Below the pieces are notes generated by a model. That model was not told the origin of the DNA, ran no database searches, and was given only the letters and a program-made list of their open reading frames with translations. DNA of 64,000 bases from Microbispora catharanthi (GTDB taxonomy: Bacteria > Actinomycetota > Actinomycetes > Streptosporangiales > Streptosporangiaceae), in contig NZ_VDMA02000030.1 in the NCBI RefSeq assembly GCF_006334915.2, forward strand, positions 1 through 64,000, read 5' to 3'. A program made the translations under genes and the position numbers. Shown here piece after piece: positions 13,388 through 21,514 of the stretch. Positions within the stretch are counted from its first letter, which is position 1, and every line of letters starts with the position of its first letter.

Positions 13388-14685
13388 GATTCCGTCCCGC
13401 GGCCCGTCACGCTCTCGGCATCCACGAGCCCGGCGGCTTCGGCGTCGGCGAGCCGCCGGTACGCGCGGTCGCGCAGCCGCAGCACCACCGTCGCCAGCAG
13501 CGCCGCGACCAGCGAGCCGGTCAGGACCGCCAGCTTGACCTGGGCGTCGCGGGCCGTGCCCAGGCCGAACGCCAGCTCGCCGATGAGCAGGGACACCGTG
13601 AACCCGATGCCGGACAGGATCGCCAGCCCGCCGACGTCCACCCAGGCCAGCCCCTCGTCGATGTCGGCACGGGTGAAGCGCGCGGTCAGCCAGGTGGCCG
13701 CCATGATCCCCAGCGGCTTGCCCACGACGAGCCCGACGACGACGCCCAGCGACACCGGGTCGGCGAGCAGGTTCGTCACACCGCCAAGCCCGCCGAGCGG
13801 CACCCCCGCGGACAGGAACGCGAACAGCGGCACCGCCACCCCGGCTGAAATCGGGCGGAACCGGTGCTCGAAGTGCTCGGCGAGCCCCGGCCCCGCCTCC
13901 GGGCCGCCCGCCTTCTCACTGCGCAGGACGGGTACGGCGAAGCCGAGCAGCACCCCGGCCACCGTGGCGTGGACACCCGAGGCGTGAACCAGCGCCCAGG
14001 TCACGCCGGCCAGCGGGAGCAGCAGCCACCACGAGCGCACCCGCCGCTGCACCAGCACGGCGAAGACGCCGAGGGGCACCAGCGCCGCCAGCAGCGGCAG
14101 CACCGACAGGTGCGACGTGTAGAACACCGCGATGATCACGATGGCCATCAGGTCGTCCACGACGGCCAGGGTGAGCAGGAACGTACGCAGCGCGGCGGGC
14201 AGCCGCCGCCCCGCCACGGCGAGCACCGCGAGCGCGAACGCGATGTCGGTGGCCGTCGGGGTCGCCCATCCCCGCGCCTCGCCGTCCATGAGCGCGTTGA
14301 CCAGCAGGTAGAGCAGGGCCGGGACGATCACACCGCCGGCGGCCGCCGCGACGGGAACGACGGCCCGACGGGGATCGCGCAGGTCCCCGGCCACGAACTC
14401 GCGCTTGAGCTCCAGGCCGGCGACGAAGAAGAAGATCGCAAGCAGCCCGTCCGAGGCCCACTTGGCGAGGCTGAGGTCCAGGTGCCACACGGCCGGCCCG
14501 ACCGTGGCCGAGCGCAGCCCCGCGTACGCCTCGGACCAGGGCGAGTTGGCGCAGACGAGGGCCGCGACGGCGGCGATCAGGAGCAGCGCGCCGCCGATCG
14601 TCTCCTTGCGGAGGATGTCGGCGATGCGCCGGGTCTCGGCCCGGGAACCGGGACCGAGGAGGGAAAGTCGGCGGGTAGGGGCCAT
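13384..14685 (-). CDS. nhaA: Na+/H+ antiporter NhaA
   Basis: A 433-residue membrane protein with about 12 helices. It begins its fold with [26 protein letters not shown] (about 24-49). The paired aspartates of the ion site lie in [15 protein letters not shown] and the unwound-helix region in [18 protein letters not shown]. NhaA exchanges two protons for one sodium ion across the cytoplasmic membrane for pH and sodium homeostasis. The ATG at 14685 was chosen because CGGAG lies just upstream and the longer frame adds 22 unrelated residues. It is divergent from the helicase-PLD gene. Confidence 0.93.
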
Positions 14686-14896
14686 GGGCGCTCCGTTTTC
14701 CGGGCTCGGTTCGACGACCGCCGACCAGACTTCCCGGCACCCCGCATCCATCCTAGGGCGTATCCGACCGGATTATTGCCCACTGCACCTTTCGTCCCAC
14801 CGGTTTCCCCTCGGGAGTGCCCGCTCTCAGGTGCCGGAGACGGTAGGTTCTCGATCCGTACCACGACCCTGTCGGCCCCCTTGCCATGGGAGCGAG

Positions 14897-17800
14897 ATGT
14901 CAGGTCCGCGGCACACTCCCTTTCCGATCGACCAGCTGCTGCGTGCCGTACGGCTGGAGATCGCAGCGGAGCTGCGAAGCGACGGAGACGGGGAGAAGCT
15001 TTCCCTGTCCGAGGGGCGCCGGCTCGGCCACAGCGCGGAGAAGTACGAATACCTGTTCTCCTGCAAGGCGTGGAAGGAGATCTTCTCCGGAGAAAGGCTG
15101 CTGATCCGCCCTTCCCGATCGCGTGACGCCTGGGCGAGCGCCGAAGTACGGCGCATGCCCGATGGGAAGGTCAAAGTCCGCACACCGGCGGATCTCGGCG
15201 CCGGGCCCATCCAGGCACAGGTGCGTTTGGACGAAACGGCAGGTTGGGAAGCCGTCGTCGAGCGACTGGAGTCGGCGGGCAGAGCCGCGGACTCGGTCAA
15301 CCTGACCTCCGCCGGCTGGCTTATGGACCAGGGGCGGCCCCGCGTCGAGCGTTGCGCGACGCCGGAGCGGTTCATCCGGGGATACCGTGAGCGCACGCTC
15401 AACGACGGGCAGCGCCAGGCCGTCGAACAGGCGCTGGGGAGCGAGCTGACCTACATCTGGGGACCGCCGGGCACCGGGAAGACCGACGTCGTGGCCGCCA
15501 TCGCGGAAGGCACTTGCCGGCAGGGGCTGCGCGTACTGTTCGTCGCCCCGACCAAGGTGGCCGTGGATCAGGCGCTGGAGCGGATCTGCGATCTGCTGTC
15601 CGGCGAGGAACGCTTCGGCAGAGGCTTGGTGCAACGGGCCGGGGAGATCGAACTACCTTCGCTGGCGGCCAAATTCGGCGAGCAGATCGACCCGGCCAGG
15701 ATCGCCGAAAGACTGTCCGCCTCGCTCGTGGAACAGATCAGCGACGTCCGTCGCCGGTTGGAGGCGGCTCTCCAGGACCTGACACTGCATGCGGACGTGG
15801 CGACTGCCGAGGAGCGGCTGGCCGTTCTGCGCACCGACCACGACAGGGCCGCTCAGCGCATCGCTCTCCTGCAGCAGCGAATCCAGCTGGCGCACCGGGC
15901 GATCGGCGAGATCGACCACGAGATCCGGAGTATCGCGCCGCCGACCGGGCTGTTCGCCAAGAAGAAGCAGGCCAAGCTGGAGCAGCTTGGCCGGATGCGA
16001 TGGGATCGTCAACAGGAACTGGTCGCGGCCGACGACGAGCTTCCCCTCGCACATGCCGCCCAGAGCCGGTACGCGACCGAGATCGCCGAAGCGGAACGGG
16101 CCTTGACGGCCCAGCGCAGCCGGCTTCGTGCCGTCCCGGCTCGTGGCCCGCTCCAGGAGGCCGTCGACCGGCTGAGGCAGCACCTGCCGGGGCTGGAGCA
16201 GGAACTGCGGAAGATCGCCGACGTGGTGCGCGGGAACTGCATGGTGATGGGAACCACGGTCGCGAAGGCGGTGCAGTCACGCAGGCTTCTCGACTCGATC
16301 GACGTGGTCATCATCGATGAGGCCGGCATGGTGAACACCCCCTCCGCCTGGTGTGTGGCGGGGCTCGCGGGTCGCCGCCTCGTCATCGCCGGCGATTTCC
16401 GCCAGTTGCCGGCGGTGACCAGAGCCTCCGGTGATCGGAGCAGCTCCCAGGAAGACCGGGAGCACGCCCGGCTCTGGATGGACCGGGATCCGTTCACCAC
16501 GGCGGGGCTGGTCGACGCCACCGGCAGGGCCCTCCGCGACGATCCGCGCCTGGTCTGTCTGGACACGCAGTACCGGATGCGACCGGCCATCTGCGAGGTC
16601 GTCAACGTGGTCGCCTACCCGGACGCGCCGCTGCGCACCGGTCGAGAGGACTACGGGCGGCTTCCCCCATCTCCGCTGCTCAGCGGGCCGCTTATGCTGA
16701 TCGACACCACCCCGCGCCGCCTGCCCAACCCCACGGCCAGGTATGGCGCGCACACCACCAACCCGGTGCACGAGGCCGTCGTCCACGAGCTCATCCGTGG
16801 CCTGCAGTACGACGAGGTCCTCCCCGCACGCAAGTGGACCGACCTCGCCGCCGGCGAGCGTCCCACTGACCGCATGGCCGTGATCGCACCGTTCAAGGCA
16901 CAGGTTAAGGCGCTGCGGGACAGCCTGGCCTACCGGTTCGGCCAGGACTGCGACGGACTCGTCGACACGGTTCACCGCTTCCAGGGCAGCCAGCGTCCCC
17001 TCGTGGTCATCGACACCGTCGCCGGATCAGGAGACAAGCCCGGCTACTTCTACGAGGGCCTGGGGCTGTCCTCCTCCACCTGCCGCCTGCTCAACGTGGC
17101 TCTCAGCCGTGCGCAGGATCACCTCGTCGTCGTGGCGGACATCCAGTTCCTACGCGCCAAGCTCAACCCGGCCGGCGAGGCCGCGCGCATGCTCACTCAT
17201 CTGGAACGGCATGCGCACAAGCTCTCCGTCGACGACCTCGTCCCCTTCCGCTGCGCTGCCGACCTCGCCGGCCTGCCCGAGGAGGAACTGGCAAGGCCGG
17301 CGTTCTTCCCGGCCGACGAGGTGCCACGAGCCATCGCCTGGGACATCGCCCGCGCCCGGCACAGCATCGAGATCTACTGCGCGTTCCTCGACCCGAACCC
17401 CGTGCACAACTGGCTCCGTCACCTCGCGCCGCGTGTTCAGGCAGGAGTGCGGGTCACCGTCCACACGAGAGATCAGTCGGAGGACGCTCGCCGGAAAGCC
17501 CTCATCGAGGAACTCCGAGCTGCCGGATGCCAGGTCGCGACACGCGAGCGGATGCATGAGAAGGTGCTCATTCTCGATGACACCGTGCTCTGGCACGGAT
17601 CCCTCAATCTCCTGGCCAACACCGGCCCTACCGATCTCATGATGCGGATCACCGATCCGGGGGCCTGCCGGCGCGTCCGTCACATCGTCGAGCGAGCTCG
17701 CATGGAACGCCCCGCACGCCCCTGGCCGCAGCGCGGGTTCTCCGGGCCCCGGCCGGAAGGCGACGGCGAGCCTCGTCCAGGCGCGGTCGTCGGCGGCCGC

Positions 17801-17962
17801 CTCTATCTCGACGTCCCCTTCGAGGACAAGGATGAGCTGAAGCGCTTGGCACGGGCCGAAGGCATGTCCGCGTCCTGGGACGGCAGGCGGAAGTTGTGGC
17901 ACGTCGATGCCGGTATTCCCCGGCATGTCGTCCGCCGATGGCTTCCACCGTCGAATTCCTGA
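14897..17962 (+). CDS. SF1 helicase-PLD nuclease-DUF5710 protein, Mokosh type II (MkoC)-like defence candidate
   Basis: This 1021-residue protein has a split COG1112-type SF1 helicase (UPF1/DNA2 group). Walker A GPPGTGKT is at 189-196 and Walker B DEAG at 474-477, with a long coiled-coil insertion between them (about 250-430). GDFRQLP begins at 499, QYRMRP at 558, and VDTVHRFQG at 689-697. A phospholipase-D half follows, with one HKD motif H887-x-K889-x4-D894 and GSLN at 901-904. Residues about 965-1017 (YLDVPFEDKDELKRLA to WDGRRKLWHV) match DUF5710. Helicase plus PLD in one chain is the architecture of MkoC of type II Mokosh antiphage defence; the DUF5710 tail is extra. The start is ATG 14897 with GGGAG upstream; the open frame extends further, across nhaA. 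GC looks lower than in the neighbours. Confidence 0.85.
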   Translation: MSGPRHTPFPIDQLLRAVRLEIAAELRSDGDGEKLSLSEGRRLGHSAEKYEYLFSCKAWKEIFSGERLLIRPSRSRDAWASAEVRRMPDGKVKVRTPADLGAGPIQAQVRLDETAGWEAVVERLESAGRAADSVNLTSAGWLMDQGRPRVERCATPERFIRGYRERTLNDGQRQAVEQALGSELTYIWGPPGTGKTDVVAAIAEGTCRQGLRVLFVAPTKVAVDQALERICDLLSGEERFGRGLVQRAGEIELPSLAAKFGEQIDPARIAERLSASLVEQISDVRRRLEAALQDLTLHADVATAEERLAVLRTDHDRAAQRIALLQQRIQLAHRAIGEIDHEIRSIAPPTGLFAKKKQAKLEQLGRMRWDRQQELVAADDELPLAHAAQSRYATEIAEAERALTAQRSRLRAVPARGPLQEAVDRLRQHLPGLEQELRKIADVVRGNCMVMGTTVAKAVQSRRLLDSIDVVIIDEAGMVNTPSAWCVAGLAGRRLVIAGDFRQLPAVTRASGDRSSSQEDREHARLWMDRDPFTTAGLVDATGRALRDDPRLVCLDTQYRMRPAICEVVNVVAYPDAPLRTGREDYGRLPPSPLLSGPLMLIDTTPRRLPNPTARYGAHTTNPVHEAVVHELIRGLQYDEVLPARKWTDLAAGERPTDRMAVIAPFKAQVKALRDSLAYRFGQDCDGLVDTVHRFQGSQRPLVVIDTVAGSGDKPGYFYEGLGLSSSTCRLLNVALSRAQDHLVVVADIQFLRAKLNPAGEAARMLTHLERHAHKLSVDDLVPFRCAADLAGLPEEELARPAFFPADEVPRAIAWDIARARHSIEIYCAFLDPNPVHNWLRHLAPRVQAGVRVTVHTRDQSEDARRKALIEELRAAGCQVATRERMHEKVLILDDTVLWHGSLNLLANTGPTDLMMRITDPGACRRVRHIVERARMERPARPWPQRGFSGPRPEGDGEPRPGAVVGGRLYLDVPFEDKDELKRLARAEGMSASWDGRRKLWHVDAGIPRHVVRRWLPPSNS

Positions 17963-17992
17963 CGTTCACCAATGACGTTCATCAGCGACGTT

Positions 17993-18055
17993 CACCAGTG
18001 CCGGTCACCAGTGCCGGTCACCAGTGCCGGTCGCAGTGATGGTCGCAGTGATGGT
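17993..18055. repeat. Short tandem repeats downstream of the helicase-PLD gene
   Basis: There are three 13-bp copies of CACCAGTGCCGGT (17993-18031), followed directly by two 12-bp copies of CGCAGTGATGGT (18032-18055). They lie in the 230-bp spacer between the convergent helicase and HNH genes, which holds no supported gene. Confidence 0.8.
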
Positions 18056-18193
18056 CGCAGCGGGCCGAACACTCCGAGCCCAGCCACCCCCTCCACTGGC
18101 TCAGGCCCTCGCTCGATGTCCAACCGCTCGGTGTCCCGCTGCTCGGTGTCCCGCCGCCCACTGTCTGGCCTTCCCTGTCGGGCGTGGGAGGTG

Positions 18194-20806
18194 TCAGAAG
18201 GGCGGTTCGTCGAGTTCGCCTCCGAGCAACGCTCCGTGTGTCCCGGTCTCGCCCTCCGGTTCCGATGGCGTTGCTACCTCCGTGTTCGGTTGTGAGGCCT
18301 CCTGTGGGAGCGGTGGTTCGGGGGCCGAGGGGAAGGTGGGGGTGTCGGGGAGGTCTCCGAGGTACCGGTAGGGCGATGGGGTGGGCTGGCTGCGGGGACG
18401 GGGATCACAGGCGGAGAGAATGATCTTTGGGAGAGGGCTGGGGTAGCGGTGCCCCAGCGGGCTGGTCCAGATGACCAGGTAAGGACTGGCGGTGCTGACG
18501 CGCCAGCCGCCGTGGTGCCGGGCGCGGTGGTCGTGGCGGCAGGCCAGGTGCAGGTTCTCCGCCTTCGTGGGCCCCTGCTCCGCCCACGGGAGGATGTGGT
18601 CCTGGTCGGTCCGGGTGGCGGGCGTGCGGCAGCCGGGCCAGGAGCAGACCCGGCCCCGGATTTGCACGTATCGTCGTAACGCCGCTCCGGCCTGACGCCG
18701 CCGCTCCGTATCCGCCGCGCCGTCCTCCAGACCCTCGGCTCGCCCGCCCACCGCGCCGTCCGCCATGCCGTCCTCCTCGCCAGTGGCCAGGAGGCGTGCG
18801 GCCTGAGTGGACAGGTCGGCGACGACCGGTGCCCACGCCCCGAAGACGCTGGCCGGCTGGGCGGCCAGCACCCGCAGGAGACTGAGGGTGACCTGTAGTT
18901 CGACAATGCCGCCGCGCCGCCGGTCGCGGGCGGGGCGGCCGGGGGTGTGGGGGCGGGCCCGGGTGAGTCCGGTCAGCGCCAGGTGGCCGTTGTCGTGACA
19001 GATGGCGTATCGCCACTGCCCGCCGAGCATGCCTGCGACGATGCGCCGGGCCAGGCAGGGGTGAATCACTCCCCAAGCAGGCAGATGGGCAGGATGCTCG
19101 TCCAGGCCGAGCAGTGTGGTCAGCTCGACCCGGATCTCCCGCACCGGCCACCCTGCGGCGCGCGCCCAAACACCGGCACCCGCCTGTGCATGACATTCAG
19201 CTCGGGCACGCCGCAACTCCGCCCTGTCGGGCCTGGCCCTGTCGGACCCAGCCTTATCGGGCCCGGCCCTGTCGGGCACGACCTTGTCGGGCACGACCTT
19301 GTCGGGCCCAGCCTTACCAGGCACCGCCTTATCGGCCCCAGCCTTATCGGACCCGGTCCCGCCCCGCCCGGTCTCATCATCAGGTGCGGGCGCGCCGACC
19401 GCTGTTTCCTCCGGCCCTGTCGGATGCGCGTCCATTGGATGTGAGCCGCACGCGGGCGACAGTCCGCCGGACCCATTTTCCGGGCGGCTACACGTCTCGG
19501 CGTCACGGTCGTCTTCGGCCGCGTCTCTGTCGGCGCCGGTGAAACCGTCAGTGCCGTCAGTGCCGTCAGTGCCGTCAGCGCCGGCAGTGCGACCGCCACC
19601 ACGTTCACCGAGGTCGCTACCAGGGCGCACGCCGCCATCGCCGTCGGGGCGGTTGGGGGCGGTGTCAGGGCGCACGCCGCCACCGCGGCCGGGGTGGTCA
19701 GGATCGTCGCCGCTGCCACCGGCGTTGTTGTCACCGTCGGGGGCGTTGCCGGCATCGCCTTCCCGGGTGTCGGGGGTGTCGTGGAAGGGGTGGCAGAGGA
19801 CGTGGGTGATGATCTCCTCATCCGACATCCCCTCGAACGTGCCGTCCAGACTTCCGAGGAAGAGGTCCACGCGGATGTGATCGATCGGGCGGCGGTCGCC
19901 GGCCCGTTTGCACGCCCGGGCCAGCTCATCGATGCGGTCGCACCCGGCCGCCGCCCGATCCAGAGGCAGGTCCAGCCCGGACACCGTCGCGGTGCCATCC
20001 TCGTTGCGGGTCCCCACCACCCGGCGGCGGCGTACCGCCTCCGCGTACCGGCGCTCGGCCCAGGCGGGATCGATCGCCAACGCCAGGCGCTGGATTCGCT
20101 CGATCAACTCGCCCACCGTCCAGGACGACGCCTGGGGCACCAGTTGTTCACACACCAGGGCGGCCTGCTCGTCGGTCAACCCCACCGTCCACCGGACGAA
20201 CGCCACCGCCCGGGGTTCGTCCAGGGTCCCGGCCAGCATCGCCTCCCCCAAAATCGGCAACCGGCGGTGAACATTCCAGGCCAGCTCGAAGGTGGAGTCG
20301 GCGCGGCGGCGTGACCACACCAGCGCCGCACGCGCCTCATCCGGGCCGAACTCATCCGGCACCTCCAGCCGCGCCACCTCGTCACCCGAGAACAGGTCCC
20401 GTAGCCCCACCTCCAGCAAGGCCCGCAAGAACCACGCCCGGGCATGACAAACCTGCCGGTAGGCCGCCTTGAGCACCTCCACCGTGTCGAACCCCGACAC
20501 GCGCTCCACGTTCACCTCGGCCAGCAGTCCGGCCAGCTCCGCACCTGGGGGTATCAGCGTGAGCCCGTCCGGAATCGGAACCGCGGTTCGCGACGGCGGA
20601 AGCACGCCGGCCGTTCCCACGCCGGACGACGAGGAGGAGCGGGAACAATCAGAAGCGGACGGCATGGGCGGCACAGGCGACGAGGACGACGCGCCGGGCA
20701 CGCGAGGCACCGACGACGCGGACTGCCTGAGCCATCTCCGAGGCGCGGGCGGCACGGAGGGCACTGGCGACAAGGCAGACACAGAGGACACGGACGGGCC
20801 TGGCAT
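18194..20806 (-). CDS. DUF222 / HNH endonuclease-like protein with internal repeat linker
   Basis: An 870-residue protein of the actinobacterial DUF222-HNH (13E12-repeat-like) family. The DUF222 helical region (about 80-320) is followed by a long Gly/Asp/Pro/Lys-rich linker with GPDKV-type pentapeptide repeats, and then by a C-terminal HNH module. That module reads RVCSWPGCRTPATRTDQDH, with the Asp-His of the motif, and ends in CRHDHRARHHGGW. The first 70 residues are Ser/Pro-rich. Such proteins occur in many copies per genome and are thought to be nucleases tied to mobile DNA, though activity is seldom shown. The start at 20806 has AAGGGGG about 9 bases upstream. It is convergent with the helicase-PLD gene. 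Confidence 0.88.
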   Translation of the reverse strand: MPGPSVSSVSALSPVPSVPPAPRRWLRQSASSVPRVPGASSSSPVPPMPSASDCSRSSSSSGVGTAGVLPPSRTAVPIPDGLTLIPPGAELAGLLAEVNVERVSGFDTVEVLKAAYRQVCHARAWFLRALLEVGLRDLFSGDEVARLEVPDEFGPDEARAALVWSRRRADSTFELAWNVHRRLPILGEAMLAGTLDEPRAVAFVRWTVGLTDEQAALVCEQLVPQASSWTVGELIERIQRLALAIDPAWAERRYAEAVRRRRVVGTRNEDGTATVSGLDLPLDRAAAGCDRIDELARACKRAGDRRPIDHIRVDLFLGSLDGTFEGMSDEEIITHVLCHPFHDTPDTREGDAGNAPDGDNNAGGSGDDPDHPGRGGGVRPDTAPNRPDGDGGVRPGSDLGERGGGRTAGADGTDGTDGTDGFTGADRDAAEDDRDAETCSRPENGSGGLSPACGSHPMDAHPTGPEETAVGAPAPDDETGRGGTGSDKAGADKAVPGKAGPDKVVPDKVVPDRAGPDKAGSDRARPDRAELRRARAECHAQAGAGVWARAAGWPVREIRVELTTLLGLDEHPAHLPAWGVIHPCLARRIVAGMLGGQWRYAICHDNGHLALTGLTRARPHTPGRPARDRRRGGIVELQVTLSLLRVLAAQPASVFGAWAPVVADLSTQAARLLATGEEDGMADGAVGGRAEGLEDGAADTERRRQAGAALRRYVQIRGRVCSWPGCRTPATRTDQDHILPWAEQGPTKAENLHLACRHDHRARHHGGWRVSTASPYLVIWTSPLGHRYPSPLPKIILSACDPRPRSQPTPSPYRYLGDLPDTPTFPSAPEPPLPQEASQPNTEVATPSEPEGETGTHGALLGGELDEPPF
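19224..19358. repeat. 15-bp coding minisatellite inside the HNH gene
   Basis: About nine degenerate 15-bp units of the form CTGTCGGGCCCGGCC or TTATCGGGCCCAGCC run head to tail. Because the unit is a multiple of three, the minus-strand gene reads them as repeated five-residue blocks (GPDKV, GPDKA, GSDRA and similar). Confidence 0.85.
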
Positions 20807-21157
20807 TGGCGGGCACCCCCTTCACGGCCGGAGACGAAAGCACCATGGGTTCCCGGCCGCTTGGACCGGGACTTACTCACACAGACTCGGCTACTTCATC
20901 AACCCGGCACATGGGCCACAAACCAGAACGCCAACCAAGCTCACCCGTAACAACTACTCCAAAGGCTAACCGAACACATACTCGAAAACAAGCGTGACCA
21001 GCACAAACATGGGGTCACAACCTCGCGCCGTCCACGAACCGGGAACGCGGGAGCGGATCGGTAGGGAGCGAGGACCGGAGCGAAGGCCCAGACCGGCCCG
21101 GCGAAGATTCTGAACGAGCGAGGAATTCCGGCCCGGTGGAGCGGGGCGGGCTTCGTG

Positions 21158-21330
21158 AGTACCGATGATCGAGAAGACGCCGGTCGGGATGAGCTACAGA
21201 TGCACCATCGACACCTTGATCGCCCAGGCGATCCGCCACGGACTCGCCCCGTCGATCGCCGCCGCCTCGCATAGCTCACAGGGATGGCCTGCAGTGCCGC
21301 GTAGATCACCGGCATGATGAAGCGGGTCCA
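21158..21330 (-). pseudogene. Fragment of a carbohydrate ABC transporter permease
   Basis: Reading leftward, one frame gives WTRFIMPVIYAALQAIP. The next frame continues ELCEAAAIDGASPWRIAW and KVSMVHL, an in-frame amber stop follows, and the same frame resumes LIPTGVFSIIGT. This is the EAA-loop region of a MalF-type sugar permease (EAAAIDGASPWR is the family signature) broken by one frameshift and one stop. No ATP-binding, binding-protein or other permease parts adjoin it. The rest of 20807-21400 shows no supported gene. Confidence 0.75.
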
Positions 21331-21400
21331 CGTCGCCGGCCGTGCAGAAGATTCGCAGCTCCCCCGCCCCGTCGGCGCGGCCCGTCTCCAGTAGCACAAG

Positions 21401-21433
21401 AAAGCCCAGGTCGGCTGTGCCGACCTGGGCTTT
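21401..21433. terminator. Terminator downstream of tRNA-Lys
   Basis: A perfect 15-bp inverted repeat (AAAGCCCAGGTCGGC and GCCGACCTGGGCTTT) with a 3-nt loop lies 7 bp beyond the 3' end of the tRNA. Its arms end in A and T runs, so it can act as an intrinsic terminator for the tRNA transcript. Confidence 0.85.
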
Positions 21434-21440
21434 CATTGGG

Positions 21441-21514
21441 TGCGCCGCCAGGGACTCGAACCCCGGACCCGCTGATTAAGAGTCAGCTGCTCTAACCAAC
21501 TGAGCTAGCGGCGC
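21441..21514 (-). tRNA. tRNA-Lys (anticodon CTT)
   Basis: A 74-nt cloverleaf without encoded CCA. The acceptor pair is GCGCCGC/GCGGCGC with discriminator A. The D-arm is TAGCTCAGTTGGTTAGAGC, the anticodon loop CTCTTAA carries CTT, and the T-arm contains GGTTCGAGTCC. It reads AAG lysine codons. Its 3' end faces the HNH/helicase segment. Confidence 0.95.

Follow-up and report, generated by a model that had tools for sequence, protein, structure and literature searches.

A probable defense gene of Microbispora catharanthi encodes a helicase-phospholipase D-DUF5710 protein that appears separate from type II Mokosh

What is the role of a gene of Microbispora catharanthi that joins a superfamily 1 (SF1) helicase, a phospholipase D (PLD) nuclease domain and a DUF5710 tail in one chain, and is it, as a preliminary description of this DNA held, a type II Mokosh-like defense gene with an added domain? 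The gene lies in the first 64,000 nucleotides of contig NZ_VDMA02000030.1, the stretch that we analyzed as a whole and refer to as the window. Our analysis confirms the observation and supports the interpretation in part: judged by sequence comparison, the helicase-PLD-DUF5710 family is probably defensive, and by the tests made (profile, coverage and tree) it is not type II Mokosh. The helicase, PLD and DUF5710 domains form one intact protein and one clade. We consider it probable that the gene is a stand-alone, horizontally moving defense gene of Actinomycetota that encodes a proposed single-chain helicase-nuclease. A defense role is likely because the gene is patchily distributed (2 of 15 genomes of the genus), lies in a clean insertion of approximately 3.25 kb, and has defense-type neighbors in 7 of 16 loci, as compared to approximately 1 of 15 control loci. 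The gene and its parts are as follows.

14897..17962, + strand: whole gene, 1021-residue helicase-PLD-DUF5710 protein (open reading frame, Pfam, ortholog alignment)
14897..15391, + strand: N-terminal region, residues 1-165 (a few strands in a model of very low confidence)
15392..17221, + strand: SF1 helicase core, residues 166-775, AAA_11/AAA_12 (Pfam, PDB profile matches)
15683..16240, + strand: helical, probably coiled-coil and fast-evolving insertion, residues 263-448, between Walker A and Walker B (model; ratio of nonsynonymous to synonymous substitution rates, dN/dS, 0.40-0.59)
17294..17701, + strand: single-HKD PLD nuclease domain, residues 800-935 (Pfam; fold matches on a low-confidence model)
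17783..17953, + strand: DUF5710 tail, residues 963-1019, preceded by a fast-evolving linker (Pfam; dN/dS 0.11-0.26)

The reading frame runs from an ATG at 14897 to a stop codon that ends at 17962, with no internal stop. The frame is open further upstream, as far as a TTG at 14405; the ATG at 14897 is the point from which most orthologs align. There are 18 distinct full-length orthologs, 17 of which were aligned and scanned (the 18th, in genome G577, turned up later). The Pfam matches of the window protein to AAA_11 (105 bits), AAA_12 (79 bits), PLDc_2 (35.1 bits against a cut-off of 27; residues 817-932) and DUF5710 (PF18974; 47.9 bits against a curated cut-off of 26.5; residues 968-1017) each exceed the cut-off, confirming the three-domain chain that had been proposed, and the tail match, on whose significance the preliminary description had staked its reading, is significant. 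Homologs with this three-domain architecture were sought, and all four Pfam families are matched by 17 of the 17 scanned orthologs, DUF5710 at an E value of 0.001 or better. The helicase motifs GPPGTGKT (189-196), DEAG (474-477), GDFRQLP (499-505), QYRM (558-561), VDTVHRFQG (689-697) and NVALSRA (733-739) are all present, as are the HKD residues H887, K889, D894, G901, S902 and N904 (HxKx4D ... GSxN). Earlier described as intact, these residues are invariant across the 17 aligned orthologs, with the exception of A476 and G477, which are nearly invariant, and V689.

The AAA_11/AAA_12 core and its nearest solved relatives, SMUBP-2 and UPF1, place the motor among the UPF1-like SF1 helicases (the PDB profile matches are SMUBP-2, UPF1 and DNA2), and the HxKx4D ... 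GSxN motif together with the PLD fold places the nuclease domain in the single-HKD PLD nuclease superfamily. Residues 1-165 probably correspond to the oligonucleotide/oligosaccharide-binding (OB)/stalk side domain that UPF1-like helicases have. The model of the whole protein is of low quality (mean predicted local distance difference test score, pLDDT, of 45), and its confident parts are only the helical insertion (mean pLDDT of 76-96 per ten residues, residues 281-430) and, less so, the tail (69-84). In a low-confidence C-terminal model, the PLD domain fold matches NucT, Zucchini and the SauUSI PLD; nearly all VIA rows of the fold lists for this model cover the PLD part only, and hardly DUF5710. 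A comparison of DUF5710 with solved structures gave only chance-like matches, the best being a RACK1-type WD-repeat chain (E = 0.017). When the window gene is compared with four orthologs, with several dS values above 1, dN/dS is 0.10-0.15 for PLD, 0.09-0.28 and 0.14-0.20 for the first and second helicase halves, 0.16-0.33 for the N-terminal part, and 0.5-1.2 for the linker (three pairs where computable).

Is the protein, then, a Mokosh protein? Type II Mokosh (MkoC) has an SF1 helicase followed by an HKD-bearing PLD on one chain, and the window protein has both domains in equal order. Our MkoC reference set comprised three proteins, from plasmids of Nitratidesulfovibrio, Yoonia and Hymenobacter, together with PADLOC profile PDLC03924. 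These three proteins match the profile over its full length, at 1031, 1230 and 929 bits, respectively, whereas the window protein matches parts of it only, at 148 bits in three stretches; the best MkoC match among the 17 orthologs has an E value of 6.4e-46. The Walker A box of the window protein also lies approximately 80 residues closer to the N-terminus, and DUF5710, which the window protein bears, is not among the Pfam matches of the three MkoC examined, in keeping with what the preliminary description had said of the tail.

A profile built from the 17 family members gives a similar picture in reverse. It scores the members at 1573-1803 bits, the actinobacterial UPF1-like helicases L072, L071, L025 and L073 at 318, 310, 247 and 233 bits, a helicase-PLD protein of a congener (L024) at 156 bits, a Cytobacillus helicase at 141 bits, two MkoA at 107 and 74 bits, and the three MkoC at 79, 64 and 49 bits, that is, below all four actinobacterial helicases and at or below the two MkoA. 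The tree separates the 17 rows of the family from the 3 rows of MkoC as two clades, each with 100/100 support, although its deep joins are poorly supported and it has several long branches. By profile score, coverage and tree, we reject type II Mokosh identity; of the earlier reading, a probable defense role stands, and a type II Mokosh protein with an added domain goes too far. A divergent MkoC that acquired a DUF5710 tail would account for the shared helicase-PLD order, the partial profile match, and a BLASTP alignment with Yoonia MkoC that spans helicase and PLD at 25% identity, and the weak deep joins would accommodate it. Set against the full-profile scores of the three MkoC (929-1230 bits), their low rank on the family model, the two clades on long branches and a generic MkoA match, this origin is quite improbable.

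Type I Mokosh consists of two adjacent genes, the MkoA helicase and the MkoB PLD, whereas there is one gene here. The window protein scores 199 bits to MkoA and, through its PLD, 29.6 bits to MkoB. Helicases whose HKD is degenerate or absent reach 191-196 bits, which is about the same, so the MkoA match is generic, and MkoA similarity was rejected as evidence of Mokosh. From these comparisons, the protein appears to represent an uncharacterized single-chain helicase-nuclease family that is patchy in soil actinobacteria and separate from the look-alike Mokosh protein.

The nearest helicases found are L071 and L072, which come from another family of the class. The L071 alignment runs on through the PLD region; in both proteins, however, the PLD region is degenerate with loss of HKD (by eye), and a Zn_ribbon_Top1 tail (30.4 and 32.3 bits against a cut-off of 32, with L071 just short) stands in place of DUF5710. 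The L024 protein (L024:5543-9085, - strand; congener G009) is approximately 26-27% identical, has an intact HKD, matches the MkoC profile partially at 148 bits, and has at its C-terminus, in place of DUF5710, a cysteine-rich stretch that looks by eye like a zinc ribbon. Since L071 and L072 have a zinc ribbon, L024 a cysteine-rich stretch and the family DUF5710, the tail position varies among related helicases.

The distribution of the family is patchy. Among samples that overlap, full-length orthologs occur in 2 of 15 genomes of the genus, our own included (three further genomes have only weaker helicase matches), in 5 of 80 genomes of the family sample (plus one fragment), in 13 of 121 of the order sample, in 3 of 148 of the class sample (plus one three-piece copy; three further matches are distant helicases), and in 2 of 81 genomes of the genus of one distant member. 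The copy in pieces is in draft genome G176. Named members come from Microbispora siamensis, Microtetraspora malaysiensis and Acrocarpospora macrocephala, and the other aligned orthologs are 51-91% identical to the window protein. Of 246 genomes from across the phylum, two have a DUF5710 match above the cut-off, namely that of the window and G184, and in each case the match lies within a helicase-PLD-DUF5710 protein.

How did the gene come to lie where it does? Comparison with the empty site of a congener delimits one segment.

14858..18109, + strand: approximate inserted segment of ~3.25 kb (in L044 of congener G004, the counterparts of window positions 14857 and 18110 are separated by 20 bp)

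By reading of the sequence, the left neighbor is nhaA and the right neighbor is an HNH/DUF222 gene. Four of 13 congeners (G002, G004, G007 and G009) have an empty site, with the two neighbors 20-419 bp apart and the gene absent. In five others (G001, G005, G010, G011 and G013), the left neighbor lies approximately 0.6 kb or less from tRNA-Lys; G014 has approximately 4.7 kb of other DNA at the site, G012 has only the HNH gene of the two, and G003 and G006 match neither neighbor gene. In Microbispora siamensis, the gene occupies the site that it has in the window, and in other genera different genes flank the ortholog. The site was considered as an island hot spot; it is variable in the genus since other DNA lies near tRNA-Lys in G006 (L055:2378-12434), G003 (L054:5551-12011) and G014 (L051:1115-5841). 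In the window, tRNA-Lys is at 21439-21514, approximately 3.5 kb from the gene and past the HNH gene, both of which had been reported as nearby. The HNH/DUF222-like gene (by eye; 18194-20806, - strand) has repeats of the GPDKV/PDRA kind and is present at the site in some congeners only. A decayed ABC gene had also been reported, and a six-frame translation of 20807-21440 contains nothing recognizable, no profile search having been made there.

The GC content of the gene is below that of its surroundings, as claimed, if only mildly: 68.5% compared to 70.9% for the window, with 58 of 610 stretches of the gene's size at or below this value. At third codon positions (GC3), the gene has 0.835 and the HNH gene 0.815, as compared to 0.93-0.96 for six other genes of the window. 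A promoter and terminator scan at the gene found no promoter-like site and one terminator-like site, at chance level. Plasmids (49 of 72,556 records with partial matches, none covering 80% of the protein), phages (one partial match in 50,697 records) and viral contigs (25 pattern matches, none confirmed) gave only partial or unconfirmed matches, and carriage by plasmids or phages was rejected.

We then compared the neighborhoods of 16 loci, namely the window and 15 orthologs. Genes were called by a simple script, and those up to two places from the ortholog were taken, 61 in all; the set excludes a second copy located at the site of the window, the copy of G176 that is in pieces, and the locus of G577, which turned up later. 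A defense-type gene lies within two genes in 7 of the 16 loci (by PADLOC families, some by eye).

L002: DrmA within this range, with DrmB behind it
L087: DrmC and DrmB, with DrmA behind
L089: DrmC, then DrmB and DrmA behind
L081 and L082: McrB with a gene in McrC's place
L088: DUF262 gene matching Orf5/HEC-06
L021: large DruE-like (Druantia-like) helicase (from its own sequence and the DruE matches of two searched members)
Window, L003, L022, L023, L083, L084 (contig end, one side only), L085, L086 and L090: no counted defense neighbor

The control set comprised 60 genes at 15 other loci, drawn from G008 and from 14 of the 16 genomes that had supplied the ortholog loci. Among the best 25 of 38 families, it gave two kinase matches, the same number as the neighbors, and one SNF2-type helicase, and no control gene resembles nine of the defense neighbors by phmmer. 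The difference between 7 of 16 and 1 of 15 loci has a p value of 0.023 in Fisher's test, or 0.040 if counted as 6 of 15.

Several points weigh against a stand-alone defense gene. The neighbor test was framed after the loci had been inspected, so the excess is support and not proof, and the neighbor matches were taken from the best 25 of 72 families, those of the controls from the best 25 of 38. Nine of the 16 loci have no counted defense neighbor within two genes (partly by eye). L087, L088 and L089 all belong to a single genus. Between L087 and L089, the Drm genes share 73-84% identity; these two loci are therefore not independent and represent one event or near it. PADLOC kinase-type matches are no commoner than in the controls (2 of 61 compared to 2 of 60) and point to nothing. 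In the 64-kb window, tblastn found no relative of the Drm, McrBC, Orf5, DruE or PDC-M55 neighbors; the earlier statement that the gene stands alone accordingly holds in the window and fails for the family, other members of which often lie beside defense genes. Loss in congeners rather than gain here is not formally excluded, and for the C-terminal model Foldseek places TrmBL2, which binds DNA, at the top rather than nucleases.

An alternative reading is a housekeeping-type helicase-nuclease of RNA surveillance or DNA repair in some actinobacteria, whose proximity to defense genes reflects shared variable regions. Its UPF1/SMUBP-2-like core and the failure to find relatives of the defense neighbors in the window favor such a role. 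A housekeeping gene is unlikely, however, to be present at full length in 2 of 15 genomes of its genus only, to lie in a clean insertion, to occupy different sites in different genera and to occur once in pieces, and we regard this explanation as unlikely overall.

A different possibility is that the protein is part of DISARM or McrBC, an accessory helicase-nuclease where such systems lie nearby rather than a stand-alone system. Its gene neighbors drmAB or drmABC at three loci and mcrBC at two others, and excerpts of the CoCoNuT paper describe UPF1-like helicases (CnuH) as nearly always going with type II/III CoCoNuT McrB (PMC11090510). On the other hand, the partner systems change between loci, and the nine loci without a counted partner speak against an accessory role. 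DrmC is the usual PLD nuclease of DISARM, according to excerpts of a preprint on YprA helicases (PMC12458937), and it is present alongside the helicase-PLD-DUF5710 gene in two loci (L087 and L089), that is, in two of the three DISARM loci. A tblastn search of the window with the DrmA, DrmB and DrmC of L089 and with the DrmA and DrmB of L002 found no relative. Taken together, an accessory role is rather unlikely.

Among published designs, CoCoNuT CnuH is the closest found, by analogy, to the helicase-PLD-DUF5710 protein that we regard as a stand-alone defense candidate. In the excerpts mentioned above, CnuH proteins are UPF1-like helicases in which a helical, coiled-coil insertion follows Walker A; they are coupled to nucleases, with Vsr fused to the helicase in type III-B and PLD in a separate CnuE in type III-C, and UPF1-like helicases act on RNA or single-stranded DNA (PMC11090510). 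The window protein shares the helicase type, the insertion after Walker A and the coupled nuclease. It differs in that tblastn found no relative of the L081 or L082 McrB or McrC in the window (CoCoNuT CnuB and CnuC were not used as queries), and in that the McrB beside the L081 and L082 orthologs has NxxD motifs (by eye), whereas CoCoNuTs have NxD. The motor of SauUSI, which likewise joins PLD and a helicase, is of superfamily 2 (SF2). This type IV restriction enzyme (PDB 7clg) also differs in having its PLD at the N-terminus (match at residues 9-175).

NucT, Zucchini and similar single-HKD enzymes act as dimers. By the mechanism that we propose, DUF5710 and the UPF1-like helicase would engage single-stranded DNA or RNA from phage or plasmid replication, the ATP motor would move along the bound strand, and the two PLD domains of a dimer would build an active site and cut the strand; the helical insertion may serve assembly or regulation. 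In the full-text literature, for which most subscription papers were beyond reach, DUF5710 was found in a single paper, as part of Rep_3 plasmid replication proteins (PMC11233732, excerpts), the CoCoNuT paper (PMC11090510) was absent from the matches for DUF5710, and no helicase-PLD-DUF5710 protein was described among the matches listed. By analogy, the Rep_3 occurrence fits a nucleic-acid role for DUF5710 without showing one. We tentatively suggest, with somewhat less than even confidence, that the gene by itself constitutes a new anti-phage system that differs from Mokosh. In this view, DUF5710 would recognize the substrate and load a UPF1-like motor and a PLD nuclease dimer onto the nucleic acid of the invader, related helicases would be able to exchange the tail, with DUF5710, a topoisomerase-type zinc ribbon or nothing at that position, and Actinomycetota would use DUF5710 in no other way.

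DUF5710 is without an assigned function, and its role becomes testable in a family where it is fused, under constraint, to a helicase-nuclease frequently found next to restriction systems. The candidate defense repertoire would gain a helicase-PLD chain that arose separately or diverged deeply, and annotators should be aware that partial MkoC or MkoA matches need not be Mokosh.

Further genes near the orthologs were seen and left uncounted. In L022 (12676-16519, - strand), genes of the candidate system PDC-M55 (C at 893 bits and A at 598 bits, full length) lie three and five called genes away, and in L023 an SNF2 helicase is at the second place. Ser/Thr-kinase-like genes (by eye) lie near orthologs at L090:1388-7714 (- strand), L115:1022-7411 (- strand), L023:10793-12049 (+ strand) and L081:3220-5631 (+ strand), and two of the four encode more than 2100 residues. 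Downstream of the G577 ortholog is a beta family protein-like gene (by eye; L115:10785-11825, + strand).
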